This document shows, one piece after another, positions 9,280 through 53,400 of a stretch of DNA of 64,000 nt. Within the stretch, counting starts at the first letter, position 1, and each line of letters opens with the position of its first letter. The position numbers and the translations under genes were made by a program. The stretch is from Loxodes magnus. Lineage: Eukaryota; Ciliophora; Karyorelictea; Loxodida; Loxodidae. The DNA is taken from NCBI GenBank assembly GCA_946699065.1, contig CAMPDV010000110.1, positions 682,001 through 746,000 of the forward strand, in the 5' to 3' direction. Below the pieces are notes generated by a model. That model worked only from the letters and a program-made list of their open reading frames with translations, made no database searches and was not told where the DNA came from.

Positions 9280-12200
9280 TCAAGATATTTTTATTACATT
9301 TTAAGTATTAATTTCGATTTAAATTCTAGAGTTTATTTTTTAGAGTCTAGCTCCTAGCTTCTCAATAAGAAAGTCCAACTTTTTCTCGAGAGAGTCCAGT
9401 TTGGTCATTTTTTTTTCGAGAAAGTCTAACTTGATCATACTTTAATCAATTTTTTAATTGATTTGATCATCAGATTTTTTTATGCATTCTCTTACATCTA
9501 TAACTTTTCCTTCCCATCCAAAGTTATCTTCTTTATAATAATTATCACATACATGAAGAAATTTTTCCTTATTTTCTGGTTTTAAAATTGATAAAATCTG
9601 TTCTATTTCAAGAATAACTTCTGTCATGTCTCGATAATCATAATAGACTTACTATATTTAAAACTCATCGAAAGAATCTCCTAGAATTGAGATGATCATA
9701 TTAAGCATTAGTACTACATTTAAAATAACTGCTAGAAGGAATGTAATATACATTATATCAAAATCTTCTTTATCAAAAACTCCTGCATCTCCTGCTATTA
9801 AATCAAACGAGGAAATTCATAAGTTTTTAAATGAAATTTGTTCACCCTTTGCTGTAACATATAGAAGACCAAATGATAATGTAGTATATACCATTATAGA
9901 AAGGAAATATCTTATTTTGTAAAGGGAATCTATAATCAGTTTAATGTAATATCTAGTTGCGGAAAATGCTCTGAAGCCTGTAATTCCACGCAATACGTTT
10001 AAAAGCAATACAATCCAATTAAATATTTCAATTTTTATATCATAATAACAGAAACAGAGTCATGGAATCATGCAAATAAGTCTTGTAATATCAATAAGAT
10101 TCCAAGTACTTTTACAATATTCTAATTTAGCTACTCTTATTTATAGGAACTCTCAAATAAGCAAAACAAGGTTGACTAAAATTAGTAAAAGTCAAGCAAA
10201 GTAAAACAAATAGAAGGATGGTCTAATCATAACAACTACAATTAGGAAAAGATTCATTCATATTAAACAAGAAAAGAAAAGGATTCAATATCATAACTCG
10301 TTTCACTTTAAACTAATATAGCTTCTTATTATTTTATGCTTGTATAATTCTTTATATGAGGAGTCAATAAAAGATTTTAATAGTTCCATGCTTGAATCAG
10401 AACCTGATTCAGAAGGTAACTTGAATAAAGAAGTAGATATTTTAAAATGCTCTTTATTTTTATCATTTTTTCATGATGAGATATTAGAGAACTATTCCTT
10501 GTCCTAGCTAAGTGAAAGTTAGGTAGTTAAATTTTAGTTTTATTATTTTTTAAAAAGAGAAAAGCTTTAGAAATAAGAATCATGAAACTTGAAACGTTAA
10601 TCTTGTTCAATGAGAAGAAAATCACGTTTATCTTTGTTGCAATAAAATAGAGAGTCAAGAAATGAACTTAAATTAAAAGAAGTACTAATAATAAAAGGAA
10701 AATCTGGCTAGACTGCTAAAAAGATAGATCTTTATTTTAGAAACTCGTCAGCTTTCTGTGCAGATAAATAATCCAAAAGAATATCAGTAATTTTTTAATG
10801 TTGGCTAATAATTGAGTAAAATAAGGGAGATCGGCCAAAATTGTCGGTTTGAATCAATATAGGAACTTTATTTTTAAATACATTTTCAATTTCTTTAGTT
10901 TTACCTAAAAAGCAAGCTAAATGTAGAGGAGTGTACAGATAAGAAGTTAATTAAATATTTCAATCCAGAATTTTATCTCAGCAATTAAAGCTAATTTGAT
11001 TCCAAACATTTAAATAAGAAACTAGAGAAGATTTTTAAAGAGGGATAGCAAATACTTTTAGTAATAGATCAAAATATTCCCAAATTTATAAGCACTAATT
11101 ATCTATTCTTTTCATTATCAATTTAAAGTCTTCGAATTTTAGGTTCCATAATCTAATTGTTGAATCTTAAGAAACACTAGTAAGTAAAGATCCGTTAGGA
11201 CTGAAAAAAACACAGTCTACAGGTTCTTAATGTCCTTCAAGAGTTTTAATTTCTGTATAATCTTCAGTATTCCAAATTTTTATAGTTTTGTCACTTGAAG
11301 CACTAGCAAGTAAAGATCCATCAGGACTGAAAGAAACACAATTAACAGGTTTTTAATGTCCTTTAAGAGTGGCAATTTCTTTGAAATTTTGAAGGTTTAA
11401 AATTTTTATATACTAGTCTTAAGTAGAATAAGCAAGCTAAAGTCCATCTTTATTTATTGAAACACAATTAGCATAGCCTTAATCTATTTTATGGCTTCCA
11501 AGTAATTAATAATCATTAAGGTTTCATATTTTTATAGTATTGTCACTAGATGCACTAGCCAGTTTTGATCCGTCAGAACTGAAAGAAATGCAGTTTACAT
11601 AATCTGCATTCACCTACAAAGAGATATATTAACTTTATTCTTTAAGATTTCAAATTTTTATAGTTTTGTCATTTGATCCATAAGCAAACTTAGATCCATC
11701 AAGACTGAAAGAAACACAATTAACAGATTTTTAATGTCCTTTAAGAGTGGCAATTTCTTTGAAATTTTTTAAATTTCATAATTTAATATTATTGTCAATT
11801 AATTCACTTGCAAAAGATCCGTCAGGACTGAAAGTAACATGTTTAAAACAATCCTTGCTATTTTTTAAGGTTAAATTCGCATTATATCCTTTAAGGTTTC
11901 AAAATCTAAGAGTTTTGTCATAAGAAGCACTTACAATATTAAATCCATCGGGACTGAAAGTAACACAGTTAACATGATCTGTATGATTTTCAAGATTGAC
12001 GATTTCTTCGTAATTATTAAGGTTTCAAATTTTTATAGTTTTGTCACTTGAAGCACTAGCAAGTAAAGATCCATCAGGACTGAAAGAAACATTATTAACA
12101 AACCCTTAATGATTTTTTAAAGTGACAGTTTATTCATAATTTTAAAGGTTTCATATTTTTATAGTTTTGTCGTTTGATGCGCCAGCAAGTAAAGATCCAT

Positions 12201-13818
12201 CAGGACTGAAAGTAACATTATTAAAGGGTTCTTATTGTCCTTTAAGAGTTTAAATTTCTGTATAATCTTCAGTGTTCCAAATTTTTATAGTTTTATCGTT
12301 CGATGCACTAGCAAGCTTCAACCCATTAGGACTAAAACAAACACTGTTAACATGATCTTTATGCTTTTCAAGAGATCTAATTTCTGTATAATCTTCAGCG
12401 TTCCAAATTTTTATAGTTTTATCGCTTGAAGCACTAGCAAGCAAAGATCCATCAGGACTAAAACAAACACTATTAACTTGATCTTTATGACCTTCAAGAG
12501 GTCTAATTTCTGTATAATATTCAGTGTTCCAAATTTTTATAGTTTTATCATTTGAAGCGCTAGCAAGCAAAGATCCATCAGGACTAAAACAAACACTATT
12601 AACTTGATTTTTATGGCCTTTAAGAGTTCTAATTTCTGTATAATCTTCAGTGTTCCACATTTTTATAGTTTTGTCTTTTGATCCACTAGCTAATTTAGAT
12701 CCATCAGGGCTGAAAGAAGCACAATTAACGTAATCTCCATGCTTTTGTAAGGTAGCGTATTCTTGTTATCCTTTAAGATTTCATAAATTTATTTTTTTAT
12801 CATACGAAGCGCTGGCAAGTTTCAATCCATCAGAACTGAAAGAAACGCAGTTGATATGATCAGAATGTTCTTCAAGATTGGCAATTTCCTCGTAATTTTC
12901 AAGATTTCATATTTTTATAGTTTTGTCACTTGATGCGCTTGCAAGCAAAGATTCTTTGGAACTGAACGAAACACATTTAACATGATCTTAATGCCCTTAA
13001 AGAGTTTTAATTTCTGTATAATCTTCAGTGTTCCAAATTTTTATAGTTTTGTCACTTGAAGCACTTACAAGTAAAGATCCATCAGAATTAAAAGAAACAT
13101 TGTTAACATGATCTGAATGTCCTTCAGAATTGGCAATTTCCTCATAATTTTCAAGATTTCATATTTTTATAGTTTTATCGTTCGATGCACTAGCAAGCTT
13201 CAACCCATTAGGACTAAAACAAACACTGTTAACATGATCTTTATGCTTTTCAAGAGATCTAATTTCTGTATAATCTTCAGTGTTCCAAATTTTTATAGTT
13301 CTATCGCTTGAAGCACTAGCAAGCGAAGATCCATCAGGACTAAAACAAACACTATTAACTTGATCTTTATGACCTTCAAGAGATCTAATTTCTGTATAAT
13401 CTTCAGCGTTCCAAATTTTTATAGTTCTATCGCTTGAAGCACTAGCAAGCAAAGATCCATCAGGACTAAAACAAACACTATTAACTTGATTTTTATGGCC
13501 TTTAAGAGTTCTAATTTCTGTATAATCTTCAGTGTTCCAAATTTTTATAGTTTTGTCATCTGATCCACTAGCTAATTTAGATCCATCAGGGCTGAAAGAA
13601 ACACACTTAACAGATTTTTAATGTTCTATTATAGTTTTTTTATGAAGATGTTTAATCTTTTATTTGGTTATTAAATTCAAAACGATTCTCGTTACTGTTT
13701 CTATTTATTCTCTAGATTCAAGTTGCTTATGCCTGTTCGCTTTATTTTCGCTTGCTTTCTTTTTATTAATTTTTTAAGGTTGCTACTTCAAAAGTTTTTC
13801 TTTAAGATTACTTTGCAT
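9280..13818 (-). CDS. WD40-ankyrin-cation channel fusion protein (1,512 aa)
   Basis: One frame runs from the ATG at 13,818 to a TGA at 9,280-9,282. After a basic N-terminus (1-65), 20 WD40 repeats of about 42 residues fill roughly 66-900. An ankyrin-like stretch follows (about 960-1,050, with [12 protein letters not shown] and [13 protein letters not shown]). The channel core spans about 1,170-1,390: hydrophobic helices, a pore loop ([15 protein letters not shown], about 1,332-1,346) and an S6 ending [11 protein letters not shown] coiled coil lies at about 1,455-1,495. The core resembles TRP/PKD-type channels and lacks a dense S4 arginine ladder. The blade-closing Trp is TGG in some repeats and TGA in others; Gln is often TAA/TAG. 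The last internal TGA is at 9,817-9,819, 178 codons before the stop. No introns are needed. Likely a membrane cation channel with a large cytoplasmic scaffold. Domains are clear; gating and location are inference. Confidence 0.9.
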
Positions 13819-14045
13819 TTATAAATAAAAAATTTATAATTTGATTTTAAAGAAGGGAATTTATTTCCTAATTATAAAGTATTTTAATATTTAAAAATAA
13901 AGATTTCTTAATGCTTTTAGTAAGCTTTTATAATTATGACTTGCTAACCATTTTTAAATTTATTTAGTTTGCTTTACGAGACTTAAAAGTTTATTTTTAG
14001 CATCTTTAATTATTTGTGATTTTAATTCATATTTTTAACATCAAA

Positions 14046-14830
14046 AATGGAAACTCTCAAGGTGGTCTTCATTTTAGTTAGGAGCAGCATAAAAAGGCTA
14101 ACACTCAAAGTGGAGCGGTAAGGCTATAAAACCATTCATAGGAGGGCATTCTTTTCATCCACTACCTAAAAAGATGAAATAGCGATAGGATGGAGACATT
14201 AAAACTCCCCCAAAAAGTTTAAAATATTCAGATCTAGATTCAATACTTAATATGAACACTGATAATAAAAATCCGAACATTGGAAGAAGATCAAAGTCAA
14301 TAAAAAGAAGAATTTTAACCTAAATTGAAGATAAAAAATCTCGCTTCGGAGGAAAATCTAGAAATATTACAGGACAATAAATGGTAGGAGAATTCTGACA
14401 AAGGAAAATGACATCTCAATTATTAAAGTGCAAGACGAAAAAAATGGGTGTGACAAGAATAAATAAATACAGATTGAAATACAACATGATTAAATCCGGC
14501 AAGAATTCTAAAAGAGGGATTGTGTTTGAATGGAAATAGAGAAAAAAAAGAGCAAACAGAACTAAAACTAAAAGAAATTAGATAACTATGTAATATTTGC
14601 AAAAATCGATGGTACCTATACGGAAATGTTCGTAACGAGGGAAAAAAGAAGAGCAATCTGAACATCGATCTAACGAAAGAAAACGACTTTGTTTCCATCG
14701 AGTAATGAGAAGATTTAAAGGAGAAAACAAGTAAACTGGATGGAAGTCTATATACTGTTAGCAAAAGGATATCTACAAATTTGAAAAGCTTTTCAAATTT
14801 CTAACCGTAAGGCGAACTTTATTTTAAGCT
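14046..14830 (+). mobile_element. Gag-like element remnant (family of 6.9 kb)
   Basis: Purine-rich, Gln-, Lys- and Glu-coding sequence with local domain-like spacing in more than one frame. A knuckle-like motif around 14,600 keeps the spacing of the 7,335 knuckle but is decayed. The last 400 bases resemble, in inverted orientation, 41,400-41,850, so this is a dispersed repeat rather than a single gene. It looks broken, with several breaks. No polymerase domain or terminal repeat was seen. Confidence 0.4.
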
Positions 14831-15329
14831 AATAAGTTGAGTGAAATATTTTTAAGTTTGAAAACTTAAATCTTCTAAAAAGCATGTTCTATTTATAATT
14901 AATAAAGCTTTCTTTAATTTTTTTATCACTTTAATTATGATTATAAAAAAATTAGTTCTTTTAAAAAAATAAATTTTAAGTTTAAAATTTTTTAAACAGT
15001 TTGCTATACTTTTAAACTTGAAGATCTATTACTTAGCTACTTCAGTAAAAAATTTGATTTTAATTAATTTTTTTATGATTTTTATAGATTTAGCGGATAA
15101 GATATTTAGATAGAAAAATTTGATTTTATATTTTTTTATTTCAAGCAAGATTTTTAATAAAAATAAAAACATATTTTGATTAAGCAAAAAAATGATATCA
15201 TAATTAATAGAGATTTTTTATAATTTGTATCCAATTTATTTAAATTAATAGATTTATTTCTATTGTAAATTTATTATAACATAATATAAGTTACTATTCT
15301 AGTGTTACCTTTATTTTACTTACCATATG

Positions 15330-16000
15330 ATAATAATAATAATAATAATGAACTTGCAATAACTGGAATCTCAACCAATTTTTTGCTGCCATTCTTTTAA
15401 CGTGGATGGATACCACGACCGAGTTTTTTACGTGGGAGGAAACCATTAAAAATATTCGGATTTTCCTGCAAATATTTTTCTTTTATAAATTCCTGTTTAA
15501 GTAAAATAAAGTCTATTAAGCGTCCTTCACGTTTTTAATTGTTCTTTGAGTTGGATTTGTTTTCAGCACCACAATTTTTCAAAAAATGTCAGCCAGACTT
15601 GCAATACCAATATTGTTTGATTTATCTTTTCAAAGGTTTTTTCTGAAATACTTTTTTCGAGCTGATTTATTCGTTATACCATGTCTTGGTCAATCTTTTC
15701 ATCTTTCTGTTTTTGTTTAACATTTTTAAAATGAATTCCTTTTCAATAATCATGTCTTGGCTTTGTTAAAGATTTGTTTGAGACTATTAGTATAATTATT
15801 ATTCCGTTACTAAATTATTCTAGATTAACTGAAGTTTAATTATTAACAATTCTTTGTTTTGATCATCTATTCATTAATTCTCTGATTTTTTCTCCTTGGT
15901 TATAAATTATTTCTTGATACTCAGAGATTTTATTTTCATTTAATTGATCTATAAAAAGAGTTCTTATTTCTATTCAATCTTACCTGATTTTTCTGAGCTG
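15330..16000 (-). mobile_element. Gag-like element remnant, minus strand
   Basis: Minus-strand reading gives a basic, Gln-rich region followed around 15,600 by a knuckle-like motif (similar to CX2CX4HX4C but decayed) and a tail rich in Lys, Asn and Pro. The order and spacing match the 6.9-kb element. It looks broken. The 16,000-16,370 stretch beyond it is AT-rich with no clear content. Confidence 0.35.
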
Positions 16001-16375
16001 TTCCTATCATAATTTTACTTTCTGATGAGGAGCTCGATTTCTCTTCTAGTTGCTTGTTTCAATAACTGTTTCGCCACTTTCCTTTTTGCATTTCTAGTTT
16101 ATTTTTTGGAAAGGTGAATAGATTATTCCATCTTTTTTCTCTCCCAATATTTTCTACTTACCATATATTAGAAGACAGAGATCATTGACTACATCCAATA
16201 AGAGCTATTAGGTTTCGTTGGAGAAGTTTGCTAGAGGCCATTTAGATAATATACAAAGCTATAAAATGAAATAATAGTGAAATAACCTTTAAGGAGAAAA
16301 ATGTAGTTATGCTATTAATAAATAAAGTATCATCAGTAAAAAAAGATGTCAAACCTAAGAAAGGGAGAAGTAATC

Positions 16376-17893
16376 TGATCTTAGACTTAATTTACACCAT
16401 CTTAATATGTAAAAATGGAAAAAGAAGCTAACTAAAATTAATTATCCCATATAATTATTCCTTAATATCAAGATTAATAAGAGATTAATACAGATTAAGG
16501 TAAATTTATTAAAAGAATAGAAGATATTGAAAAAAATTAGGAAAAAACACAAAGAACAATTAATAAGAAGGAAATGCTGATATTGTCATTCTAGACGATA
16601 TTTAATTAAAAAATGTTAAAAATTTTAAAAATTATAAAGATAGAAGGAAGGAAAAACATTAAAAGAAATAAAAAGAATTTAACTTAAAAAATCAGAAGTG
16701 TATAAAGTTTTTTAAGAAAACTTATACAAAAAATAAGTTTCCGGATAATCTTCCTTACAAAAAAGACCGTGGAAACCAACCATGTAAAAAATATTTTTTG
16801 CTTCAAGCAGGTAGAAAATCCTGGTAAATTAAAATCTTTTTTTAAACATTTAAGTAAAGTACTTTTATTATTATTTATTCTAAAAAATTAAAAATTATCA
16901 AGTTTTACTAAAGGACTTCTTTATGTTGAATGAATTTAAAAACAAGAAAAATTATTAAAAAAATTAAAGATCTAGATAAGTGTAAAAAGGAAAAAATATA
17001 TACTCTTTTAAATTAATGAAAAATCATTTTATATTCCCAAGCCTTTATTTTTTTTTGCAATTACTTAAAATAAGTTTTCGTCCTAATAAAGTCTTCATCC
17101 TTTTTAAAGCCTGGCGATTTTAATTTTTAACAATGAGATTTAATGATAATTTACTTTTAATAATTATTTTAGTTTTTTATGTATTTATTGTCAAGTTTAT
17201 TTTATTAAAATTTAATTTACAAATATTTTATGAAAGCCCTAAAATAATCGTTTAAGCGTTTAATTTCTTTATGAGGATAATTTTTTGATCTGTATTTAAT
17301 GATTATCTTTTAGACTTATTTTAGATTTATTAAACTTAATTTAAGACTTTTGTTATTAATTTAGTTTATTTTTTAAGAAGCTTTTGATCTGTTTTAATTT
17401 ATAATAAATAGCTTATTTAAACTGGAAGATTTAGTATTAAACTTTTAATTTATTTTCATTTTTTATTGCTCTTTATTTATAAGTATTAATGGTATCGAAA
17501 TATGTTTTGATTGTAAGGTTTGATTGCTTTTCTTATTCTTAATAATTTTTAGTTACTTTAAGATAAAAAATTTTAGATTGCTATGGATTTTGAATAATAG
17601 ACTTTCAATTAAAATTAGTTTTTTCATAATTTTAATTAGAAACGTATAAAATAAATTTTGTAGCTTATTTAAAATAAGTAATAGCTAAGCTATTCGTTTA
17701 GTTTTTAAAGCACTAGATCATAATTAATTAAAGATTTTAATCATAATGTAAGCAATATTTAAGTGCTCTTCAATAGTTTCTCGCAATTTAGTATATCTAA
17801 ATTATTCTCTGAAACATAAACAATTTCCATTATTTTAATCATAACCAACTTTAATACCTTTTATACTACTAATTATTAACTGTTAAGATTTAA
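16376..17893. repeat. Left arm of a 1.5-kb inverted repeat
   Basis: This stretch recurs in reverse complement at 28,786-30,602. The inner part (about 16,873-17,893) is nearly identical to 28,786-29,808, with only a few mismatches around 17,105. The outer part (about 16,376-16,870) is clearly alignable but much more diverged. It carries no coding signal that I recognise. The left arm is uninterrupted where the right arm carries an extra segment of about 0.3 kb, so it preserves the empty site. Confidence 0.92.
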
Positions 17894-18599
17894 GTGCTTT
17901 ATTATAGAACTAAATTTAGCTATATTTAAAAATAATTTTTTTAGAAAAGCTAAATTAACACTTTTTAAATCATTTATTTTCAAACATCATTGCTTTTATA
18001 GAAGAAGCACTTTCTAAATAGAAATCTAATCGAAATTAAACTAATTTGATTCATTTAAAAATACATTCTAGTTAAATAATTAATTAAATGAGTTTCGCTT
18101 CTTTAATTATCAAAAGTCTAAGAATATTTCTATAAAATTTAAATTATTCAAAGCATTAAAATTAGCTGAGATTGTTAAAAATAAAATAGATTAAAATAAA
18201 TTAACTAATCTTAATTAATATCATTAAGTATATTCTAAAACCAAATTTTATTTACATTTTATATCTAGTTTTTCTTTACAATTTTGAATAAAATTTATAG
18301 GTTACTCATATTATAAACGACCCTTTTTTATAATAAAAATATTTACATAATTAAAAACATAAAATTCTGTTGATAAACCGTGTTAGTAAGAAAAATTAAA
18401 ATTTTAATTTCAGTAGAATAATTAAATAAATATTTTATTTACTTTTTTAAACTTTTGAAGATAGAATCACATTTCTTAAATCTGTTTAATTTATTAAATT
18501 TAAAATTATTAGGTTTTATTAAAGCTATTAATCTATTGTAAAAGGACTTTCCATCAATTGAGTTTTTTATTTATTTCAGTAAATTTTTTTATCTGTAAT

Positions 18600-19200
18600 C
18601 CATAGTGGAAATTCTTGGCAGAAACTTGTCAGCCCCTCGTATAATATTTTGTCTTTTTTACCTTTATTTTATCAAAATCTGTTGCAATTTCTCATTAAAT
18701 GCTATTTCAAACTGCAAGTAAATATCGCTTTTTGATTTTTGTCTCTTTTTTCTTGTTTTTTTAGTTTTTTATGTTAAAATTCTGTTGAAATCGCTTTTTT
18801 GATCAATCAAACCTAATTTTGCTTTATCTGTTATTACAAAAATGTTTCTTTTTTAGCATTATATCTTTTTTTAGTCTTATTTAATAGCATCTTTTTTACA
18901 CTATTGAGATATTATGAATTAATCGTATTCTATCTCTTCTATCTTTGTTTGTTACCTTTCTTTGGAGTTAAAGCAAGTTGTGCAAATGTTTCCATCCATG
19001 CCATTCATTTCTAAGTAATGTTATAGTTGCTCCTACTGCTATTCTAAGACTGCAACAGCTCTTATTAATCTAAAATTATTTTTGATGCTTGCTTCTAGTC
19101 TATTCCAAAGATAAGTTCTTTGTCAAGTTGGAAAGATAGTCTACCGTTGTAAATCTTCTAGCATTAGTCTCTTCTGTCATTTTTTTTTTGCTTATTTGAA
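18600..19200 (-). CDS. Gln-rich coding remnant, unassigned
   Basis: The minus strand reads as a hydrophilic, Gln-rich protein with good composition (for example LWNRLEASIKNNFRLIRA, then a Gln run and a CX2C pair, ICTTC). I do not recognise the family. Composition and neighbours suggest another Gag-like fragment; an ordinary ciliate coiled-coil gene is possible. Start and end cannot be set because every frame is open under this code. 17,900-18,600 to its left is AT-rich without recognisable content. Confidence 0.3.
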
Positions 19201-19899
19201 TCTATTTCTGTCTTGATTGAGCTACGTTTGTGTTTACTTATCTATTTTATAGGAGTCTATGTAGTGATTATTGTGAATGTAATATCTCAATTTTCTAATT
19301 TTCTTTCCTACTTGTCAGTTGTAGGTTATAAGAAGGATGGCCCAGTTAAGCTAAGACGTGGTAAGAAGAAATGCTTCTGGTTTTGTCTCCTATTTTGAAA
19401 TGTGGTGTAATAACTCTTCTTGAAGCAAGCTATTTTTATCCTTAATTGTATATAATATTTTTTAATCTTAAATGTAACTTAAATTTAAAAAATATGAAAG
19501 TGTTAGGTACTAAAGTTTTCCTACATCTCCCAAAAGTAGGAACCAACAGAATCCTAGAATCTCTATTACTAGAGAAAAATCATAAAGAAGGTTACACATT
19601 AGATTACGATTTTGATATCTGAAGAAAATCCTATGAAGTAGATTAAAAGTTATTTAAAACAAAAAGTACTAAAATACACAAATAGACAATAAATAAGCAA
19701 TGAATAGCTAGTAAAAGTGATGCTGAACCTCCAGGAAAAGAAAAAGAGCAACAAGAAGTTAATGGAGAATCAAAACATGCAAGAGGAAATTGAATCAAGA
19801 CTCATATCTCAGGAAAGAGCCTTATATACCTTCTGAACCATATTAAAGAACGGGGAAATAATTATTAAAACTTGCAATAGAAGAAGATAGTACTGGGAA

Positions 19900-20420
19900 A
19901 TAAAATAAAAAAATGAAGAAAATTAGCAAAAATCTTAGCGTCAAATGAAACTAAAAGAAAAATATCGATCCAAATGATTGAAAAAGAAACTATTTTAAAA
20001 TCTAAAAGAAATTTGGAAAAATGCTACTATTGCAATTCTAAAATACATACTTGGAAAAGACGTAAAATTTAAAAAAAAATAATTACGACAAAGAAATAAA
20101 GACTTAAATAAACTGTAATATAAATAGAAGAGATAAAGATTCATTTAATTTCTAGAAATCCAGCAAAAATACTTAATCTAAAATAGAAAAATGTAATTAA
20201 AACGAAAGAAAAATGATGAATAAATATTGAAGATAATATGAAAGATTCTACTGTAACTAAATGGGTCTTGTGGAGAAGAAAAGGAAGCAACAAGATTGAG
20301 AGATATATAACATCATGGCATTTCTAAATGGGAAATAGGAGAGAAAGGAACTTTTAAACCTTTTTATTAAACCTCTGGATATTTTGAGAGTTGGCAGGAA
20401 GAAATTCCTCTGAGAACATT
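19900..20420 (+). mobile_element. Gag-like element remnant with knuckle-like motif
   Basis: Lys- and Gln-rich reading with a knuckle-like motif at about 20,022-20,063, spaced as in the 7,335 copy. A short run encoding Glu, Lys and Arg follows. It is purine-rich on the plus strand like the other copies, and looks broken. No other domain was seen. Confidence 0.35.
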
Positions 20421-21795: not shown

Positions 21796-21858
21796 CACCC
21801 TTGAACCCGCAATCTCTTTCTTAGGAGGGAAGCGCCTTATCCATTAGGCTACAAGGGC
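21796..21858 (-). pseudogene. tRNA-Arg(CCT) pseudogene, 10-nt deletion
   Basis: Aligns to the intact tRNA-Arg(CCT) at 57,271-57,343 but is 63 nt instead of 73. Ten bases of the T-loop and 3' T-stem are gone, removed between two TCAAG direct repeats that flank the lost bases in the intact gene. One further change in the anticodon stem (G to A in the tRNA) weakens that stem. Without a T-arm it cannot fold as a normal tRNA, so it is probably dead. The CCT anticodon loop itself is kept. Confidence 0.88.
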
Positions 21859-21920
21859 ACTTATAATTAATTGTTTCACTTCTATATAAATATCATTTTT
21901 TTAAGTATTGTGTTCAAAAA

Positions 21921-22001
21921 CGACACCAGCAGGATTTGAACCTGCGCGGGAAAACCCAACAGATTTCTAGTCTGTCGCCTTAACCACTCGGCCATAGTGT
22001 C
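21921..22001 (-). tRNA. tRNA-Ser(AGA)
   Basis: 81 nt, type II tRNA. The acceptor pairs GACACTA with TGGTGTC and the discriminator is G. The D-arm GGCCGAGTGGTTAAGGC is standard, the anticodon loop is CTAGAAA (AGA, reads TCT and by inosine TCC/TCA), the variable arm has a GGG/CCC stem, and the T-loop is TTCAAAT. All arms pair. The inverted duplicate at 57,130 is nearly identical but has a TGA anticodon. Confidence 0.95.
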
Positions 22002-26815: not shown

Positions 26816-28120
26816 TCAATAGATAATGCAGCATCCTTTTTTTTGATTAGGTTTTGATTTTGATTTTGAATTTTCATAGTCTCTAGACTGAGATTATGTT
26901 GATTGAGGAACAACATTAAGCTAAATACTTTATCTTTATGATGGTGATAGATTTTCCTTTGGAGTTTAAGCTTTAGTTTGATTTTATTGCTAAGCTTGCT
27001 TTTCAGAAATTTTTGGTTTAAGTTATGATGATTGGGAATTGGGACTGGGTTGGATATTTTATCTTTATAATGGTGATAGATTTATCCTTGGAGTTTAAGC
27101 TTTAGTTTGATTTTATTGCTAAGCTTGCTTTTCAGAAATTTTTGGTTTAAGTTATGATGATTGGGAATTGGGGCTGGGTTGGATATTTTATCTTTATAAT
27201 GGTGATAGGTTTATCCTTGGAGTTTAAGATGTAACTTGCTTTGAAATATCGATAATTTTTGACTCATTGCTAAAAACTATAACTCCCACGAAATCATCTT
27301 AGTCTAATTGCCTTACAAAATAATTTACTGCTTGTTTAACTTATGTCCATCTACTTCCTGCCATTGATCCACTAATATCTAAATTAAAAAGTACAACATA
27401 ATTTACTTTTTGAATAGTTAAAACTGGAATATTTGTAGTTCTACCAGTTATAAATGCTCCTTAAGTGCATTATACAGCTGCTAATTCAGTTCTTTAAACC
27501 ACCCCAAGATTTGCTTTTATTTTTTCGAACACATTTTCTATTTCCCTTGCATCGTTAGCTGAAATAAATTAAGAATTTCCCATTCCTAGTGCTGTAATAA
27601 CAGCTATTTCTTTTAAAGCCTGCTCACTTTTTTCAAGATCTACTCCAACAAAAAACGTCTTTAATCTTGAAACTGGTACAGATGCTCCTATTTTCAGCTA
27701 GAGGGCACATACTTCCTCTAAAGTAGCTTTTGACTTGTTATCATCTCCATCAGTTAGAACAATATGAACAAAATTCCAATTATTTTATGCATCAATTAGT
27801 GAAAACTCATCATTCAATTGCAGAATTAGCCCTTAACCTCTTATAATCGAATCTCTCATAGCAGTTCCTCCTGAAGGTGAAATAGAACTCAAGTTTTCGC
27901 TAATAAAGCTATTATGTGCTTCCACGAATCCAATCTTATTTAAAACAGCTGAAGCCAGAGCTTTGCCAATAATTTTTTCAGCAAGTTGCCTTCTTTACAC
28001 AATAGCGATTATACTTGCTTTTTATAAATTACAATATAATTTTTAGTTATATAGTCCTTTTACTCCAATTTATCAAAATTAGAGTAAATACTTTATTTAA
28101 ACTTAATAAGTTATATTCAT
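26816..28120 (-). CDS. von Willebrand A domain protein with CaaX end (434 aa)
   Basis: One frame from ATG 28,120 to TGA 26,816-26,818. Residues about 60-205 are the second half of a vWA fold: the Thr-bearing MIDAS loop (SPSGGTAMRDS) and a later MIDAS loop (VHIVLTDGDDN), but no DxSxS in front. Residues about 245-300 are the first half of a vWA fold: NYVVLFNLDISGSMAGSRW, then helix and DDFVGVIVFSNE. The halves are thus in swapped order, as if cut from a tandem pair or circularly permuted. A Gln/Ser/Pro-rich tail with 43-residue repeats follows, ending KKGCCIIY, a CaaX-type CIIY preceded by Cys, which suggests prenylation and palmitoylation and hence membrane attachment. Internal TGA=Trp appears near the N-terminus only. 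vWA proteins bind partners through a metal site; the partner here is unknown. Confidence 0.8.
26893..27231 (-). repeat. 129-bp in-frame repeat inside the VWA gene
   Basis: The same block recurs at steps of exactly 129 bp (for example from 26,941 to 27,070 to 27,199), about 2.6 copies. Each encodes 43 residues containing TPRINLSPLQRQNIQPSP. Two copies are almost identical; the 3'-most is diverged. It keeps the frame, so copy number can vary without breaking the protein. Confidence 0.9.
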
Positions 28121-36419: not shown

Positions 36420-36700
36420 CAAAAAGTCTGAAGATAAAATAAACGAAAAAGCTGATTAAAACATGAAGAAATTAGATTCTCTTAAAGTAAAAATGAAATT
36501 CATTGATAGAAATACGATATCTGTTGAAGAAAAAATAAAAGAAGTTGAATTACTTAAAGTTCAAACTAATTTCATCGATCAAAAGATGGGTTCTCTTGAA
36601 GCAAAGTTGGACTCACTTATTGGGATGTTAAATGCAAAGTCCTAAAATTAATAACTCTAGATTTAAATTCAAAATAATTGTTTTAAATTATCATAAAAAT
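36420..36700 (+). pseudogene. C-terminal fragment of a WD40-channel paralogue
   Basis: Reads KSEDKINEKADQNMKKLDSL and on through a coiled coil ending EAKLDSLIGMLNAKS and a Gln-rich tail. This aligns with residues about 1,447-1,510 of the channel at 9.3 kb ([20 protein letters not shown]). Only the last 75 or so codons exist: upstream sequence is the GC-rich repeat and nothing of the channel core is found further left. Homology through in-frame TAA codons also supports TAA=Gln. A dead remnant is likely. Confidence 0.7.
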
Positions 36701-42060: not shown

Positions 42061-42756
42061 GGCGACTTTTAAAACTTTTGAAAAAAGCAATTACAAAAAT
42101 TGGAAAGAAAAAAAGAAAATAAAAAAGGATTATGCAAGTAAATTTAACAAAATTTAACAAAATCATTAAAATTCAGAAACATCGACAAAGTATAAAAGCT
42201 TTAAATCTATACAAATGAAATAAAATAAAAGATGAATTATCTACTTATAAAATATAAACTTAACAGTATAAAGTAATGATGCAAATTTGATATAAATTTA
42301 ATATAATGATTTGATTATCATTAGCTATAATATTATTATAATAAGAAATAATTTTTCAATAATTGTAAAATTAAAAAATTTATCATAAAAAATATGAAAT
42401 ATTTAAAATAATGATTTTAAATTGTAATATTTCTAAATAAAATTTTCTTAATTTTTGTACAAAAGGGTTCTAAAAACTAATTTTCATAATCTTATTTTTT
42501 TATAATGTAAAAATACTATATTCTATATGAAATATTTATTTGTAATTCATTAATTAAATAAAGAAAATTCATAAGATCGAGATAATAATTAACTTTTTAT
42601 TAAATTTATTTCTTATAAGAAAATATATTCTTATAAGAAATAAAAAGCTTTATTTAATATATTTGTATTACTATTTATTTTATAGAAAATAAGTCTATGT
42701 TTCCTTTAATAAATTAAAATATATTAATTTTATTAATAAATAATAAATAAATTAGC

Positions 42757-43090
42757 TTATAGAGCGCGTAGCACTCTCATTGGTGCGCAGCTCTTTAAAT
42801 TAATTTTATTTAATGTTGAAAAAATTTTATGGGTCTCTATATCCTTGTTTTCTCTTATGTCTCTGTAATTTTTCCTTCCAAAGCATAGGATGCAATATGC
42901 GATTACGGGTACATTTCCCCGACCTATGATGAAGAAAGTTTCCTCCTGGCATTCAGAGTTCTCCAGCTTGTCTCATCTTTCTTCTCTTATTATTGGTTTC
43001 TCTTCCTCCCATTTATCCTTCGTCCGCGCTCATTTTTTTGTTGCCTTGCTGGGCCTCCAAGCAGCATCCGAAAAAAAGAAATTTCCATCC
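42757..43090 (+). repeat. Diverged copy of the 49.8/63.5-kb repeat
   Basis: Starts with the same head as the other copies (GAGCGCGTAGCACTCTCATT then GGTGCGCAGCTCTTTAA), almost base for base, then a middle that has lost similarity. A core block AAGCATAGGATGCAATATGCGATTACGGGTACATTTCCCCGACCTATGATGAAG follows the 63.77-kb core at lower identity. GC-rich relative to neighbours. The conserved head with a diverged body suggests that the head is under constraint or was copied more recently. Confidence 0.75.
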
Positions 43091-43479
43091 TATTTAAATT
43101 ATTTAATAAATAAAATTTCGAATTTTTCTACAGTTACATAGTTTATTTTTAATCCTTATTTAAAAAGAAAGATGTAAAATCCATCAGGTAATATCAAGCA
43201 TTTATAAATTATTTTAAATAGCTTAATTTTAAAATACGTATAAAATTTATTATTTATTTAATATATAAAAGAAGCATTTTTTTATTGTCACTTAAACCTT
43301 TGTCTTTTTAAATGTCATTTTAAAATGAGAGGAAACGGAAGGAATCAATTAGCATTTTATTTACTTATCAAAAAACTTGAAGTAAATTAAAATTATTTTA
43401 AGGAATTTTTAGAACTTTTAAAGATTTAACAAAACAGGATTGATTTTATAATTTTATTAAGTAGTCTAAAGTGCTCTAG

Positions 43480-44960
43480 ATGAATCTCTTTCATGATAAC
43501 TTTAGTTAAGATTTATTCTTAAGCATTGAGAGAGCAAGAACAGAAAATTGAGTAAAATTAGAATCGAGATTTCACGAAATTGAATAAAACTTTGTGCTGA
43601 TTTTAATAGCAACCCTTGTAGGTTGAAAATCCAGAAAGAACAGACTAAGAAAAAGATTCTAATTTTATAACTGAATGAAACACTTAAAATCAAAAAGTCT
43701 AAAATAAAAAAGAAGCAACATCATAAGGGGTATTAACTTCTTGGAATTTAAAGAAAGAATGACTGACTTTTAAGCCTCATGAGCATGAAAATTCGGTAGA
43801 AAAAAACAGGTTTAAATTAAGTGCAAGACAAGGAGAAAATAGAATAGTAAATTATTAAACTAACAAATCAAATTTTGGTTTTAAGCCGAAAAATAAACTA
43901 TATTAATGAATAATAAAAACTTAAACTTATTATATTTTTAATTAAGTAATAATGTTTAGATAAGAACAAATAACAAGCAAGGAAAAAATTAATCATAAAG
44001 AAAAGGTAATAGTCATTAAAGTACTAAATAAATAAATCATTGGATAAAAAACTAAGAATTAAAAATAACAAATTTAAGAATAAATTATTTTAAATTGAGC
44101 AAGAAATATAATAGTTAATTTAAATATTAAGTAGGAATAATTAAAAATATATATTGCTGTTTTAGCAAGTGCAAATTCTTAATATTAAGAAAATTAAGAA
44201 AATTTATACTAATAAAAAATGAATTGTATCTCTTCTTCTAAAAATAAAAAATAAATTACTGAATCACTAAAAAGAAATATTAAAACAGTTCTCAGAGAAC
44301 AGAACTCTAAAATCATAAGTCTATGGATTAAACAAAAAAATTAGAACCTTGATATTAACCACAGCGGAGATTAAGCAAAAAAACTAATTAAAAAAGGAAA
44401 TCAGCAGCAAATCGGAAACGTAAGAAATAAATTTTCAACTAAAATAAATAGAAGAAAGATTAAATTAATTTACCATGTAACATAATCAATAGTCTAGGAA
44501 AACCAAAACAATGGAGACCCTATGGATATTGAGAAAAATTAAAATCTTGATTATATCTATAGTCAGAAAAATCTATTAAGACGTTGTTGATTCTGCAAGA
44601 GGAAAAGACACCAAATAAATCAATGTTAACAGTTTAGCATAAAGAAAATATTAGAGGGAAAAAGACTTTGAAGAAAGCCGACCTTAATATATTGTACTCG
44701 AGAAGGTAAAATTTACATAAGAAAATTGTATCAAGGAATATAATTACATTAATCAATAACGAAAGCGAATAAAATAATAATGATAAAATATTAAAAGGAA
44801 TTATAAGACAAATAAAAACAAAAGAGGAAGAAGAGGACTGAAGCATAGAGCAAAATGAAGATAGAAGCGAATAAACAGTAAAACAATAATTCATAAGAAA
44901 ACCGAAAGGAAACAGCAGAAATTTTATAAAAGCTAGAAATTTAATCTAAAAGTAAGTAAC
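43480..44960 (+). mobile_element. Gag-like element remnant with intact knuckle
   Basis: Gln/Lys-rich coding-like sequence with a full CX2CX4HX4C knuckle at 44,585-44,626 (CWFCKRKRHQINQC), where the Trp is a TGA codon. The whole is broken; number of breaks not countable by eye. It ends just before the right inverted repeat at 44,999. Family unknown, no polymerase seen. Confidence 0.45.
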
Positions 44961-44998
44961 CTAATTAATTAAATTCTTTATAATTTATATTATATAAA

Positions 44999-45410
44999 AA
45001 ATGGATATCGGTTGCGATTAGGAGAACTAGTAGGTAATCTGGTGTAGTGTATACCCCATTTTGAGTAATCTCCCACTAGATATCATCACAAGGAAGGATG
45101 GAAAAGCTCAAAAGAGATAGCCTTAACTTCCCCGAGAGTTCTCGATAACAGTATGAAAGTTTGACTGACGGCCTACTAATGACTTAACAACTAATTCTTA
45201 TTTGAATCTTATTCAAGAAAATTGGAGCATTTTATTCGAGATTCGAGAATAATCTTTAATAAGTAGATTGACATTTGGAGAAGTTGACGTGACTCGTTGG
45301 ACTAATAGAATTTTAACAAGAAGCATGAGAACATTTTTTTAAATATTAAATATTAATATTGAAAGAACTACGCGCCGACGAGGTGTTACTCTCTCTATAA
45401 TTATCTTTAT
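44999..45410. repeat. Right 0.41-kb inverted repeat
   Basis: Mirror of 38,359-38,770; the hairpin-prone heads face outward, so the pair looks like terminal inverted repeats of a 7.05-kb unit. The interior, however, is a nest of element fragments in both orientations, and no transposase was recognised. Confidence 0.93.
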
Positions 45411-45847
45411 TTATTATTAAAATATTTTAATATAAAATTTATAATATTTATTTTTTAGCTTATTTCTTGAAGCTTTTTTCGGATTATTATATATTTTTAT
45501 CAAATTTAATTGTAAAAATAAATGCTAACACCTACTAAAATATTTGCTTATTACGTTTTTTAGTAAATAATTAAAAATTGAATAATTTGTTTTATTTTGT
45601 TATTAGTTTTTGTTTTAGATTAAATTTAGTCCTTTTAGTTTTCTAAAATCTTTTTATACCATATTTTAATATTATTTGCTTTTAAACATAAGTTTTATAC
45701 CTTTTCTCCATATTTAAGGGTCAAATAAATGAACATAAATATTTTTTATATTGATACTCCATCATTGACTTGAATCATTTTAATACTAAATAAGCTCAAT
45801 ATCTCAAATAAAAGACTAACCTCTCATAAATATATATAAAAAAGCAG

Positions 45848-48211
45848 TCATCTGCCAATGACTTTCGTATAATTTTAATTGTGAATATAGATGATTGTGG
45901 AGATGTTAGAGATGTGTTGATGTACTGACTTCTTGTTTAACTAAAATGCTCAGTCCAGTAATTTTAAATCTTGTTAAAGCTTAGTTCCTAGGTAAGAATT
46001 AACAGGAATATTCAAATCAACATTTATTTTTATTTAAGGCTGCTCAATGAACTCTTCTAGAGGTTTATAAAATCTCTTTTCGTTTTAAGAAATTAGAGCT
46101 AGATTATTAAACTTAAAGTACTATACTAAAGCTACTAAAGCTTTTCCTTCCTATTCAAAAGTAGGTAGAATATTGAATGCTTGGCTATTTAAGTTATGTA
46201 GGTTATTTCTATAAGCTATTAGAATAATAAAGTTAGGGTTATCTCTTTATATTGTGTTACTATAGACTTCATTATAAGTTATATCCAATACCAGCTTTAT
46301 CTTACCTTCATTTATCTTCTTTATCTTATCTCTTGCTTCAGAAAAATTTTGGAGTGAATACAAAATTGGCTAGTAAGAAGTGTTCTGAAATTATGTTAGA
46401 CTAATTTATTGGGCTAAGTAACTAGCAAGATAAGGAGGAGTAAATTAAGAACTAAGAATACCGATTTAGAAAGCAGAAATAAGTTCAAGACAGAATAGCA
46501 AATGAATTGCATAGCTAATTTAATTCATTTTTAACTTAAAAAAGAAAATATAGCCTATTTATTTTCTATCTATTAACATACCTTTTATATATATCTCTTC
46601 ATTAGGAGAAATTAATTATACTAAATATAGCTTAAATTTAACTATTTTTCAGTTTAAAGACAGAAAGTATATTAAGGGATTGAAATTATTATTAATATAC
46701 TTGCTTGAATCCAATCAACGACTTTAATGTTTATATTTATCTGTTTATTTCCCAATTTAATCCCTAAACCATCTAGTATTAAGATTAACCTTCATCAATA
46801 GAACATAATAAATTATCTTTATTTCTAGCTATTTTATTGTAATTGTAGTAATTGGATTTTTTGATTTATTCAGTTTTAATAAACCATTGCAAGCGCCAAA
46901 TTTTTCTTGAGTAGATGTACAGTCAATTTGTACATAAAGATTATTTCAAAGAAAAGTCTTTTAAACCTTATTTTTCACTTACATCTCAATATTTTATTCT
47001 TGATACTCTCTAAATATTTTCCATGATGCAAGCACCCTAGATATTTCTTAATCAATAATTTGGTAAATTTAGCAGAAGCTTCGATCTAGCAGTTGTCCCT
47101 ATTAAAAAATAATATCTATAAGCACTTTTCTTTTAATCCCTCTAATAGATTTTTGAACTTCTCTTACCTCTCAAATAAAATAGGATTTCTTATGCTTTGC
47201 TTATATCTTTTATTTTAGGTAACTTTAACGTTAATTTATATCTTATATCTAGCCTGGGATTCTCCTATCTATAATAACTTAACTAACACTACTAAAACCA
47301 GGAAGCTAGCTTTTTAATGAAAGATATAATTATACTTCAATGAAAGATAATCAATCATAGGTACTATTTTCAGTATTTCTGGGGAGAAGTTGTAATGACA
47401 TAGCAAAGGGAATAACGAATAATTATTATGCTGCTTTAAACTTATTTTTGCAAAAAGCCTTTTATAAGTTAATGATATACATTACCATAAAAGGTTATAA
47501 ACTCTTAAATTAATTAGCAATTTTATATTAAAATAAGCATGAAGTATATATTACCAAGACAATCAAGAATACTCATATATAAACTCTGACATCGATAAGC
47601 AACTATAGTGTATTAAAAAAAAGAGTCAAAGGGAAAAATTGCTAGATTTAATAAAATGTTGCTAATAATAAAGAATTCTAGGAATATGTTAATTTCTAAC
47701 ACTTTATGTATGATTAGAAACAAAATTTGATGGAAAATAAAGATAGAATAGAATCGTGTATGGTTAAACATCTCATAATCATATTTTAAAGGGGAAAATT
47801 AATCCTATCTAAGGTTATTATCAACTTTTTTAGATTCTAATATCATGTAAGTTCTATTTAAAAAGGTACAGAAAAATGCCTTTTTTAGATTTGGAAGATA
47901 AAAGTGAATAAGTATTTAGATTATATATCCATAGATAGAGAGTACTAAAGTAGACTGTTTGAAAAAGCTGTTTCGATGCCTATAAGAGTATTAATTATTT
48001 TACTGTTTATTTATTTAACACTAGCTCTCAAGGTATTTCAGCGATGAATAGATCTCATACGTATATATGGTACTTATTTACCTACCATCATATACCGTCT
48101 TAATTTATTGAGAAATTTTAATCTACAGGACCTTGGCTTTTGTTTTTTCTTTAGATTATCTTCATTTAGTTTCCAGTCAATAATTACGGAATTATATTTT
48201 TCATTGATCAT
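45848..48211 (-). CDS. Membrane/receptor-like protein (up to 787 aa)
   Basis: A single frame from ATG 48,211 to TGA 45,848 reads with steady protein-like composition over most of its length. Near residues 205-230 is a hydrophobic helix (YIWVFLIVLVIYTSCLF), with helix-rich sequence after it (LASWKIFREYQEQNIEMQ) and a Cys-containing stretch (VQIDCTSTQEKFGACNG). The last 227 residues, which have their own ATG at 46,528 with a signal-like start (AIHLLFCLELISAF), resemble a receptor ligand-binding lobe: GKIKLVLDITYNEVYS and EGKALVALVQYFKFNNLALI. Between 46,550 and 46,900 another frame is equally good, so this may be two genes (about 46.6-48.2 and 45,848-46,528) or one with an intron. Large multi-pass Tmc-type and ANF-receptor-type families are candidates only. 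Confidence 0.5.
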
Positions 48212-48742
48212 TTATAATAGAACATGCAGACATCCGCATTTACATTACGAAATTCGATTTAAAATTATTTAATATTAGTATGGTAATTTATGAGAATTAT
48301 TTTTTTCTAAATATATACAAAGTAAAAAATATTTGTTTTATTATATCTTTAAATTTACAGGTACAGAGGATTTAATTTCTGAAAGAAAGGATGTGATTTT
48401 CTAATTTTATTGTACTTATTTATATAATAAGATCTTCAAGTTAAAAAAATGTCATGAATAATAAAAATCCTTTTTATTTAATTGTTTTTGGAATTTATAA
48501 AATTGCTTCCTTTTTATTTAACTTTAATATATAAATTTATTATTTTTAATTATTGTTATCTATAAAATTTATTTTCAAGTTTTTTATATAAAAATTTAAT
48601 TAAATATTTAATTATTTAAAAATTACATTTTTTTAGTTTTTTACATAATTTTTTTAGTATTATTTAATTTCTTAAACTCTTAATTTTTTACGTTACAACA
48701 ATAAAGTTTTATAATTATTTCATTTTTTTCGGATAATTAAAA

Positions 48743-49376
48743 AGATGGTGGGAGCTGAGATTGACCTTCTGAATCATATTTTCTGGTTTTATGGCTAGGA
48801 ACAAGTTCCTTTCCTGTCGCTGAGAAAGTCCCTGGTCAAAGTCAACCTTTGCAAGGGAATGCCTTCCTCTTGATTATCCACTCTTGGTAGGGGCTTGAAG
48901 CCTGGCTGCCCATAGCGATGGAGCTCCCTGGCAGTTCTTTTCGAAAGCAACAGGATATCCCCGTTATCCCATGAAGGGAGTGTTGGGGTCGTTAAACTGC
49001 AAGAAGTTGCAGTCCAAAACTCTTTTAGTTTAAAATTAATTAATTTCATTTTTTTCTCATATATAATTAATTAATTTCAATTAAAAAAGTTTTTGGACCG
49101 GAAACTCCTTTCCGATTGCACGACCCGACGCTCTCTTTTTATGGAATAACGGGGATATCCTGTTGTGCTCCAGGCACAGCTGCTAGGGAGCTCCATCGCT
49201 ACGAGTAGCCAGGCTTCAAGCCCCTACCAAGAGTGGATAATCAAGAGGAAGGCGTTCCCTTGCAAAGGTTGACTTTGACCAGGGACTTTCTCAGCGACAG
49301 GAAAGGAACTTGTTCCTAGCCATAAAACCAGAAAGTGTTGTCAGGAAGGTCATTCTCAGCTCCCACCATCTTTTTA
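48743..49376. mobile_element. GC-rich palindromic (foldback) element
   Basis: Two arms, 48,743-49,020 and 49,096-49,376, are inverted copies of one another around a 75-bp AT-rich centre. The arms are about 85-95% alike, with highest identity outward and lowest near the centre. Both begin with AAAGATGGTGGGAGCTGAGA at the outer ends. A single arm recurs at 36,165-36,412. No transposase. The structure is like a foldback/MITE-type element, or two insertions head to head. Confidence 0.85.
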
Positions 49377-49379
49377 ATT

Positions 49380-49839
49380 ATTCGCATATATAATTACTTA
49401 AAAGTTTATTTGCTTTCTTAAATTTTTTTATTACAATCATCGACTCGAACATCTTATTTAGGAAGATATCTTTTCATAATGAAGTTTTTTTTATTAATAG
49501 ATTATCTTTCTTCAGTAAAGTTTTATTTTACATTTTTGTTATGTTCTTTTTTTTAATTGAAACTATATTGTTCATACAAAATTTCACGTAATTTTTTTCA
49601 GTATTTATTTATATAATAGTTTGCATAAGTTCAGTATAAATTGAGTATTAATTTTCATATAAAAATTATCAGGTTTTTATTTTGTTAAAATTTTCATTAT
49701 TTGTTAAATTATGCCAATAACTACTAAAATGAAAAATGTATTTTTTTTATTAGATTTTTATTTATTTGTTGAAATACCAAGTTCGTCAATAAAATGTTTT
49801 TTTATTATAAAAAATATTATTTTTTTAAAACCGCCATAG
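49380..49839. other. AT-rich gap
   Basis: T-rich sequence between the palindrome and the next repeat. Nothing recognised. Confidence 0.4.
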
Positions 49840-50674
<835 letters not shown>

Positions 50675-51080
50675 TTTATGAAATTAATTCCATTCAATTC
50701 ATTTAATTATTTTATTTTTTTATTTATATTAGTTTTTTTTTTATTTATGAGTTTAGGCTTTTAATATTAAATTTATAGTTTTTTATTAGTTTTTGATTAA
50801 CTTTAGTGAAATAGGACTATATTTTTGTGCTGCAGTTTTTTATTTTTTTTAATTTAATATCGTTTTGATTTTTAAAATGATTTTTTTAATTTTATTATTA
50901 ATTTCAGTCTATTTTTGAACTTATAATTTTAATAATGCGCAAATTTGAATATAAAAATTTTTAGGTTAAAAATTAAATATTAATTATATGGTGTTCAAGT
51001 GTTTAAAAGTTTTATTTCTAAGTTTAAGAGCTTAATCTAATCTAATAATTTCAGTATATTTTAGTAAATAATAAAAATTT

Positions 51081-53400
51081 ATGATGTCAGAAGCTAGTTA
51101 ATGTTAAGATTGTAAGAGTTTGTTTGATATATAAGTTAAAATTCCAATGATACTTCCTTGTTGTCACAAGTTTTGTTTCGAATGTGTTCAAAGATAACAT
51201 TAGTAGTCAAAGTAAATAAAATGTTCAATGAAAGATTGTGGATAAATTACTAAAATGCATCCTGCCTAGCTTAGAATCGATTAAAATTTATTAAAAATTA
51301 TAAAATAAAACCAAATATCAAGTAATTTAGAATCATTATAAATTCATGAGAAAGAGATAAGTGATCAATTATAAAATTTAAAAGATGAAAAAACTTTTTT
51401 AGTAAATAAGGTTATTTAAGATTTAGAAAATTAGTATATTGCAAATGTTTCATGTGTATAAAAAGAATTGCAAACTTTAATAACATCATATAATTAAGAG
51501 AAAGCTAAATTACTAGATTTTTAAAATAGATTAAAAGCAGGAGATGGAAAAATTGATATTTAGAACTTAGATTTAATGCAATTAAATGAAAAGGCATAAA
51601 ATGAAATTTAAAAGGCATAAGCAGGGATAAGAAATCTTTTGAGCTTTAAGTAAGATATATTTGAATAAAACAAAAAATTAAGAGTTAAAAATTAAAAAAA
51701 TTAAAAAATAATTGAATAGTAATAAGAGTGCATATGTCAGTTAGTAAATTAAGTTTAACAATTATAGAGCTAGTTATTAAATACATTAAAAATAAAAATT
51801 ACAGCGAGAAATTAGTTAGACTAATTGAATTTCAAGATATAAAGGGAATGGGAACTATCGTAGTAAAAGTCAAATTAACATTTATAATAAAGTAAGAAGA
51901 TAGATTTGCAACTTTTATAGAAAATATTTAATGAGATGTAAAAGCATTAAATAAATAAAAAAACAATCATAAATAATCCTATAAACTTAATGGTAATAAA
52001 TCAAAGAACTGAGAATTTGCTTGATTTAGTGCAACTAAAATAAAATAAAAACTAACAGTCATTGTTATAGATCTTGAATTTATCTAAAAATTAACTTTAA
52101 ATGCAATAAGCAGCTTCCAATGCCTTAACTATGTTGAATTTTATGAACTTCTAATTCACATAATAAGATTTCTAAAACCTAGACTTAAATACCGCTGATT
52201 TATCAGATACTACTTTCACTTCATGCAATTTCGCCAACTCCAATCTAACGAAAGCGAACCTCAGAAACACTAAATTCATTAAATGCGATCTCACCAATGC
52301 AAATCTCACCTCTATCTCAACGGAACACCCCCATATTTTCACCGGACACACTAAATGTGTCACTTCCGTAGACATCTCCGCTGATGGTAACTACATCGTA
52401 TCTGGCAGTGGTGAAAAGACAGTGAGATTATGGGATGCCAAGACAGGTACATGTAAGACCATGAGTGGTCACACAAGTTATGCATGTGCTGTAGCTATAT
52501 CCAGTGATTCAGAGTTCATCGTATCGGGAAGTGGTGATACAACGGTGAGACTATGGGACGTCAAGACAGGTACTTGTAAGACCATGAGTGGTCACACAGA
52601 TTCAGTATGGTCTGTGGCTATATCCAGTGATTCACAGTTCATTGTATCGGGAAGTAAAGATAAGACGGTGAGATTATGGAACGTCAAAACAGGTACCTGT
52701 TAGACAATGAGTGGTCACACAAAATCTATAACCGCTGTGGCCATATCCACTGATTCAGAGCTAATAGTATCGGGAAGTTTAGATAAAATGGTGAGAATAT
52801 GAGACGCCAAGACAGATATTTGTAAGACCTTGAGTGGTCACACAGGTTAAGTTAATGCTGTGGCTATTTCAAGTGATTCAGAGTTCATTATATCGGGAAG
52901 TGACGATAATACGGTGAGACTATGGGACGTAAATACTGCTTCTCTTTCAAAGACTCTATCGGGACATTCCTTATGCGTTTTATCGGTTATATTCTCAAGT
53001 GATAACAAATATATCTTATCAGGATCTTAAGATTACACTATAAGAATATGGAATACTTAATCAAGGAAATGTATATGTTCATTAAAAAATTTAAAATATG
53101 TGGGTAGTTTGTCAATTTCAAGAGACAATAAATGGTTGATATCTAGTACAGGTTAATGGTATAATGAAAGATCATCAGGCAATAACATGGTTAAAAGATG
53201 GAACATAGATAGATTAATGAACTGTTTTTAGAATAATGAGTCCAAATAACAAACTTATGTAAGTCTTAACTTTTACTTATTTTCAGAAATAATAGACGAA
53301 TTGGGATAAAATTTATGATGATTATGGGCTGAGATTTTAGAATTGCATAATGGACAACATCATGATGGATGTTGAAAACACAGAAAAATATATAAACTGA
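51081..53400 (+). CDS. RING-coiled coil-pentapeptide-WD40 protein (763 aa)
   Basis: Exons 51,081-53,258 and 53,287-53,400, stop TGA. Order: RING finger (7-52: CQDC, PCCHKFCFEC, CSMKDC); long Gln-rich coiled coil (about 60-340); pentapeptide repeats (about 367-412: DLNTADLSDTTF, NLTKANLRNTKF, DLTNANL); and seven WD40 blades (about 417-725), a complete propeller. TGA 52,800 sits at the blade-closing Trp (VRIWD) where sister blades have TGG, and TAA gives Gln in GHTGQVNAV. No in-frame TGA follows for about 190 codons until the stop. RING plus WD40 suggests an E3 ubiquitin ligase that picks substrates with the propeller; inferred from the domains. ATG 51,081 is the first before the RING. It lies tail to tail with the LRR-like gene at 53.6 kb. 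Confidence 0.92.
53259..53286 (+). other. 28-bp spliceosomal intron
   Basis: GTAAGT at the 5' end, TTTTCAG at the 3' end, phase 0. Removing it gives an acidic C-terminus (DNIMMDVENTEKYIN) ending at TGA. Leaving it in gives a frame with TGA-TGA soon after. Confidence 0.8.

Follow-up and report, generated by a model that had tools for sequence, protein, structure and literature searches.

Do all three standard stop codons act as sense codons in this part of the Loxodes magnus genome, and which of them still ends a reading frame? The question arises from a stretch of 64,000 nucleotides (the window, meaning the whole stretch of DNA that was analysed), for which a sequence-only reading had proposed that UAR encodes Gln, that UGA encodes Trp and is also the stop, and that the source is a ciliate with a karyorelictid-type code. 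We find that the reassignment of these codons is genuine and corresponds to a code already known from karyorelicts, NCBI table 27. The window is very probably (about 0.95) nuclear DNA of L. magnus or of a very close karyorelict, with UAA and UAG encoding Gln, and UGA encoding Trp internally and stop near the mRNA end. Organism class and code had thus been read correctly, and a very rare genetic code was recovered from raw sequence alone; the high novelty given to it is not upheld, because table 27 has already been published for L. magnus. The new lead is narrow and consists of named genes in which UAA rather than UGA may end translation.

Genome-wide searches covered an assembly of 705,730,643 bases in 7,843 contigs. 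A mitochondrial origin was rejected on the nuclear type of the genes and the 706-Mb assembly; we know of no mitochondrial code table in which UAR is Gln. In its accessible parts, the 2024 genome paper (PMC11441545) gives the L. magnus MAC assembly as 706 Mbp, assigns karyorelicts to table 27 with UGA as sole stop and as Trp, and describes tiny introns (mode, 17 bp) that are difficult to model, short GC-poor 3′ untranslated regions (UTRs), and a depletion of coding UGA and UAA over ~20 codons ahead of the stop. Its authors wrote a gene caller for table 27, so nearly every gene need not be missed, as had been expected of ordinary callers. Further accounts of karyorelict codes are available (excerpts of PMC11687900, PMC10553269, and PMC4967479). 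Features of the window are listed in Table 1.

Table 1. Features located in the window, in window coordinates
Feature	Position	Strand	Remarks
Tandem array, period 1113 bp	242-6106	+	300-nt reference piece six times, 100% identity
CCHC zinc-knuckle motif	7335-7376	+	By pattern; unsupported by Pfam at E 0.01
First in-frame TGA after the TAA at 9342-9340	9280-9282	-	Stop proposed by the sequence-only reading; GC 0.13 in the 45 nt ahead of it
Candidate stop TAA of the WD40-channel gene	9340-9342	-	In frame; coding character (GC, codon score) ends there
WD40 (20 blades) and ion-channel-like gene	9343-13818	-	ATG 13818 to the codon ahead of TAA 9342-9340
Trp columns of the 20 blades	11146-13539	-	10 TGG, 9 TGA, 1 TTA
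tRNA-Ser(TGA), tRNA-Arg(CCT), tRNA-Ser(AGA), and a weak extra tRNA match	57130-57344; 21796-22001	+; -	
VWA-domain gene	26816-28072	-	Pfam E 1.8e-10; open with TAA/TAG as Gln; TGA 26816-26818 at its end
Coiled-coil C-terminus fragment of the WD40-channel family	36421-36645	+	AKS-TAA end, as in the WD40-channel family
Weak ANF_receptor match	43000-50200	-	E 0.0012, below cut-off
ATTT microsatellite	50321-50748		~105 copies
Gene with WD40 and pentapeptide repeats, weak RING match	51081-53375	+	Likely stop TGA 53373-53375

Both WD40 regions were translated with the three codons marked, the first one in both orientations and the second one on the plus strand; the long gene, for which no strand had been proposed, is on the minus strand. 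Its blades were aligned in register, and the closing Trp codon was tabulated for each. As predicted, this Trp is TGG in some blades and TGA in others, and TGA occurs at 0 of 820 other repeat codons. Fisher's test of this concentration gives p 3e-16, a value that is overstated because the blades are related copies of each other; TGA blades and TGG blades resemble two subtypes. The 1,492 codons ahead of the TAA hold 20 TGA (as Trp), 15 TGG, 37 TAA, and 9 TAG; read on to the TGA at 9280, the gene holds 20 sense TGA, 15 TGG, 40 TAA, and 9 TAG. The C-terminal region bears a weak resemblance to ion transport proteins (Pfam E 0.0026, below cut-off) and contains an ankyrin-like piece (E 2.6e-5). Dense runs of WD40 repeats, many at 126-bp steps and with open frames of up to 2,899 amino acids, were also seen on contigs C1503, C119, C9, C620, C272, C1832, and C6957.

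The plus-strand WD40 gene (RING match, E 0.018) shows the same mixture, with 5 TGG and 1 TGA (position 52800) closing the six blades matched by pattern, one fewer than the seven proposed. Its sense TGA codons are at 52800, 53316, and 53319, and at TGA 53373 GC drops to 0.18 from 0.36; this is the likelier stop, since the TGAs at 53316 and 53319 precede that drop. TAA and TAG are in frame throughout both WD40 genes, as had been stated. The VWA gene, which had been listed as agreeing, contains 30 in-frame TAA/TAG and no TGA ahead of its last codon; it is therefore informative for UAR and silent on sense UGA. A zinc knuckle had been cited as well, and one such motif was located by pattern. The F-box gene proposed alongside it was not found, either by strict pattern or with Pfam (threshold E 0.01), which was run in six frames on long chunks of 6.8-9.3, 14-27, 28-50.2, and 53.4-63.4 kb and in one or two frames on 9.3-14, 27-28, and 50.2-53.4 kb. 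The only row of the six-frame scans at E 0.01 or better was the ANF_receptor match of Table 1, which falls below the Pfam cut-off.

Genome-wide data support each of the three assignments, UAR as Gln, UGA as Trp, and UGA as stop. For the sense meanings, the best 37 of 136 protein kinase rows were aligned after each stop codon had been written as X. Their alignable TGA (19), TAA (154), and TAG (83) codons were best explained by Trp (log-likelihood, +50.1; next Tyr, −3.5), Gln (+30.6; Lys, −4.0), and Gln (+32.3; Lys, +1.3), respectively. The Trp of the DxWS motif is TGG in 22 of these 37 kinases and TGA in 9; the other 6 fall outside the motif pattern, four with D-W-W-S (one with TGA at the first Trp) and two with D-I-Y-G. 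This single column accounts for 9 of the 19 kinase TGA codons, and the others lie in columns of mixed make-up. TGA was further present in 36 of 150 WD40 rows. A search with the channel part of the WD40-channel gene gave 2,105 candidates, of which 72 were scored, the window's own plus 71 more. Every one of these contains between 3 and 11 in-frame TGA. Among 12 distinct channel sequences, TGA again scored as Trp (+72.6) and TAA as Gln (+44.2); TAG is left unsettled by this set because Lys (−12.1) outscored Gln (−13.7). The reading of UGA as Trp inside genes is thus found in the 20 blades, the kinases, and the channel set, and that of UAA and UAG as Gln in the kinases and in tRNA anticodons.

A pattern for tRNA genes with anticodon TTA or CTA, allowing 2 mismatches, matched 256 times, and ARAGORN called such a tRNA in all 5 loci examined (4 TTA and 1 CTA). 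Both anticodons of the tRNA-Gln(UUA/CUA) that the sequence-only reading proposed to look for are therefore present, and these tRNAs probably carry Gln. Rows of tRNA(UUA) and tRNA(CUA) genes are present on contigs C214 and C130. The proposed tRNA-Trp(UCA) gave 0 matches genome-wide to one exact anticodon-to-T-arm pattern, which a divergent gene could escape, versus 125 exact matches for tRNA-Trp(CCA) (139 with a looser pattern); a first, different tRNA-Trp pattern had given 0. The 100 tRNA-Trp(CCA) matches listed form tandem arrays on contigs C67 and C148, with units of ~187 and ~241 bp (L012-L035). In 110 of 110 array copies fetched out of the 125 exact matches, the top anticodon-stem pair is A-C or T-C, leaving 4 pairs; two tRNA-Trp(CCA) on contig C110 have a full 5-pair stem and a mispaired T arm. 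Trp is not alone in having many gene copies, because the tRNA-Arg(CCT) pattern from the window, the one other tRNA compared, has 79 matches genome-wide. Some tRNA-Arg matches on contig C1173 stand in a row, 1,655 bp apart. At one locus (L097, 701-1548), a tRNA-Met and a tRNA-Trp are almost identical in body and have an unusual T arm in common, a resemblance to be expected had either acquired its anticodon arm from the other. The 4-pair tRNA of Loxodes is already in print (cited in the accessible parts of PMC13092985 and PMC12005148).

Histone H4, with its fixed C-terminus, locates the stop: the codon after Gly-Gly is TGA in 9 of 9 loci, and GC drops there from 0.40-0.49 to 0.13-0.20. Both copies of eRF1 end in DEDFL-TGA with further TGA codons shortly behind, and GC falls from 0.36 to 0.18 in one and weakly, from 0.33 to 0.27, in the other. 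The eRF1 of Loxodes carries the motifs RAQNIKS and FLCENTF; those of human eRF1 are TASNIKS and YLCDNKF. A zinc-knuckle-like stretch was noticed in the locus of one H4 gene (L076, codons 107-287, plus strand). In a kynurenine-aminotransferase-like gene (PDB match, E 8.6e-84), the end lies near TAA-Asn-TGA, and this TAA two codons ahead of TGA argues against UAA being strictly excluded close to the stop.

The proposed explanation starts from the codon assignments, the UGA ends of H4 and eRF1, and the tRNA genes, all of which are directly observed. On cytosolic ribosomes, UAA and UAG would be translated into Gln by their cognate tRNAs (anticodons UUA and CUA), and internal UGA would be read as Trp by the tRNA-Trp(CCA) with an anticodon stem of only 4 pairs. 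Close to the mRNA end, eRF1 would outcompete that tRNA and UGA would become termination, a position-based competition that we take from published work.

That UGA acts as a stop is borne out by the H4 and eRF1 loci; that it is the only one may hold less well, as relatives of the WD40-channel gene and pelota lose coding character at an in-frame TAA, mostly with no TGA nearby. The statement that the four best genes all end at TGA is true by construction if TGA is the only stop allowed, and is therefore circular. The coding character of the minus-strand WD40 gene ends at its TAA, and the proposed TGA lies 60 nt beyond, within DNA of GC 0.13-0.16. Members of the WD40-channel family share a conserved C-terminus followed by in-frame TAA codons, soon after which the frame is lost (a 5-base gap separates copies L102/L103 from L104). 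Nine ends were measured (the window gene, its near-copy L100, L101, the similar pair L102/L103, L104, the 36.6-kb fragment, L113, and L114), and across the TAA, GC declines from 0.33-0.47 (preceding 45 nt) to 0.09-0.16. In seven of these ends the next in-frame TGA follows after 20, 20, 188, 92, 92, 20, and 34 codons, and none was found within the short stretch fetched for L113 and L114. In pelota (L036; PDB match, E 1.1e-83), which had been a candidate for eRF1 and was rejected as such, an acidic tail is followed by TAA, where GC drops to 0.18 from 0.47, and no in-frame TGA is reached for another 170 codons. This gene also contains a 17-nt GT..AG intron, the removal of which restores the frame; 17 nt is the modal intron length given in the accessible text of PMC11441545. 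The TAA-end cases are few and partly related (two family ends are near-copies of others), they were read from DNA alone, and the codon score was trained on two window genes.

These genes may fit poorly with UGA as the only stop, and UAA may also terminate in some. We tentatively propose, at clearly less than even odds, two context-dependent terminators: in addition to UGA, UAA would close the genes of the large WD40-channel family (72 rows scored for its channel part) and individual genes like pelota, backed up by further in-frame UAA shortly downstream. Within a single reading frame, this codon would then mean Gln at internal positions and stop at the last one. At one position of the family TAA cluster, however, copies vary between CAA and TAA, an exchange that favours Gln at that position and so argues against a stop at the first TAA. 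The abstract of the 2022 karyorelict code paper reportedly notes UAA as the end of a small fraction of transcripts. A literature search for UAA stops in karyorelicts led only to the 2024 genome paper (PMC11441545), the accessible text of which names UGA only.

The TAA ends could instead be artefacts of unseen introns, assembly errors, or decayed copies, with UGA the only real stop, a reading that we rate at not far below an even chance. The introns described in print are very short and difficult to model (PMC11441545, as excerpted), one base fewer in a T run would put a TGA in frame at the pelota end (by eye), and in three of the nine family ends a TGA follows after 20 codons. A short intron within the family TAA cluster was nevertheless discarded, as no GT..AG is common to the copies (by eye); the TAA-end pattern itself recurs in several distinct copies, and dN/dS in the channel family is low (of 9 pairs compared, 8 gave 0.25-0.38 and the remaining one 0.59).

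A code on the way towards that of Condylostoma magnum (NCBI table 28), with UAA as well as UGA both sense and stop, is rather unlikely. It would account for coding character stopping at an in-frame TAA in the nine family ends and pelota, with the next TGA, where one was fetched, 20 to 188 codons away; against it, 9 of 9 H4 and 2 of 2 eRF1 loci end at TGA, none of the genes examined showed a UAG end, and UGA is the only stop named in the accessible text of PMC11441545.

A Tetrahymena-like code, in which UAR is Gln, UGA is only stop, and genes with internal TGA are pseudogenes, is extremely improbable: sense TGA is indeed absent from the VWA gene and from the 426 eRF1 codons counted, but the column data already contradict it, with TGA confined to the Trp column in WD40 repeats and present in 9 of 31 kinase DxWS motifs and 72 of 72 scored channel rows, and dN/dS well below 1 in the channel pairs tested led us to reject pseudogenes.

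The tests thus confirm the karyorelict code in the window and add the proposal of UAA ends. If UAA termination were borne out by RNA data, Loxodes would be a direct test case for how one codon is distinguished as sense or stop by position.

Known systems to compare are the karyorelict code of L. magnus and Parduczia (table 27), the Condylostoma magnum code, and the Blastocrithidia nonstop code, which is NCBI table 31. The window shares with karyorelicts UAR as Gln, UGA as Trp or stop, a 17-nt intron, and GC-poor DNA beyond gene ends; it differs in that some genes look UAA-terminated, of which the accessible text of PMC11441545 makes no mention. The Condylostoma code is similar in that all three codons are sense and termination is set by position (PMC4967479, as excerpted), and unlike it, the ends fixed by homology here are TGA (H4 and eRF1), with no TAG end in the few genes examined. 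According to the accessible parts of PMC12153298, Blastocrithidia likewise has a tRNA-Trp(CCA) of 4-bp stem, used there for UGA, and an enrichment of UAA after gene ends, whereas UAR there is Glu and UAA is the sole stop.
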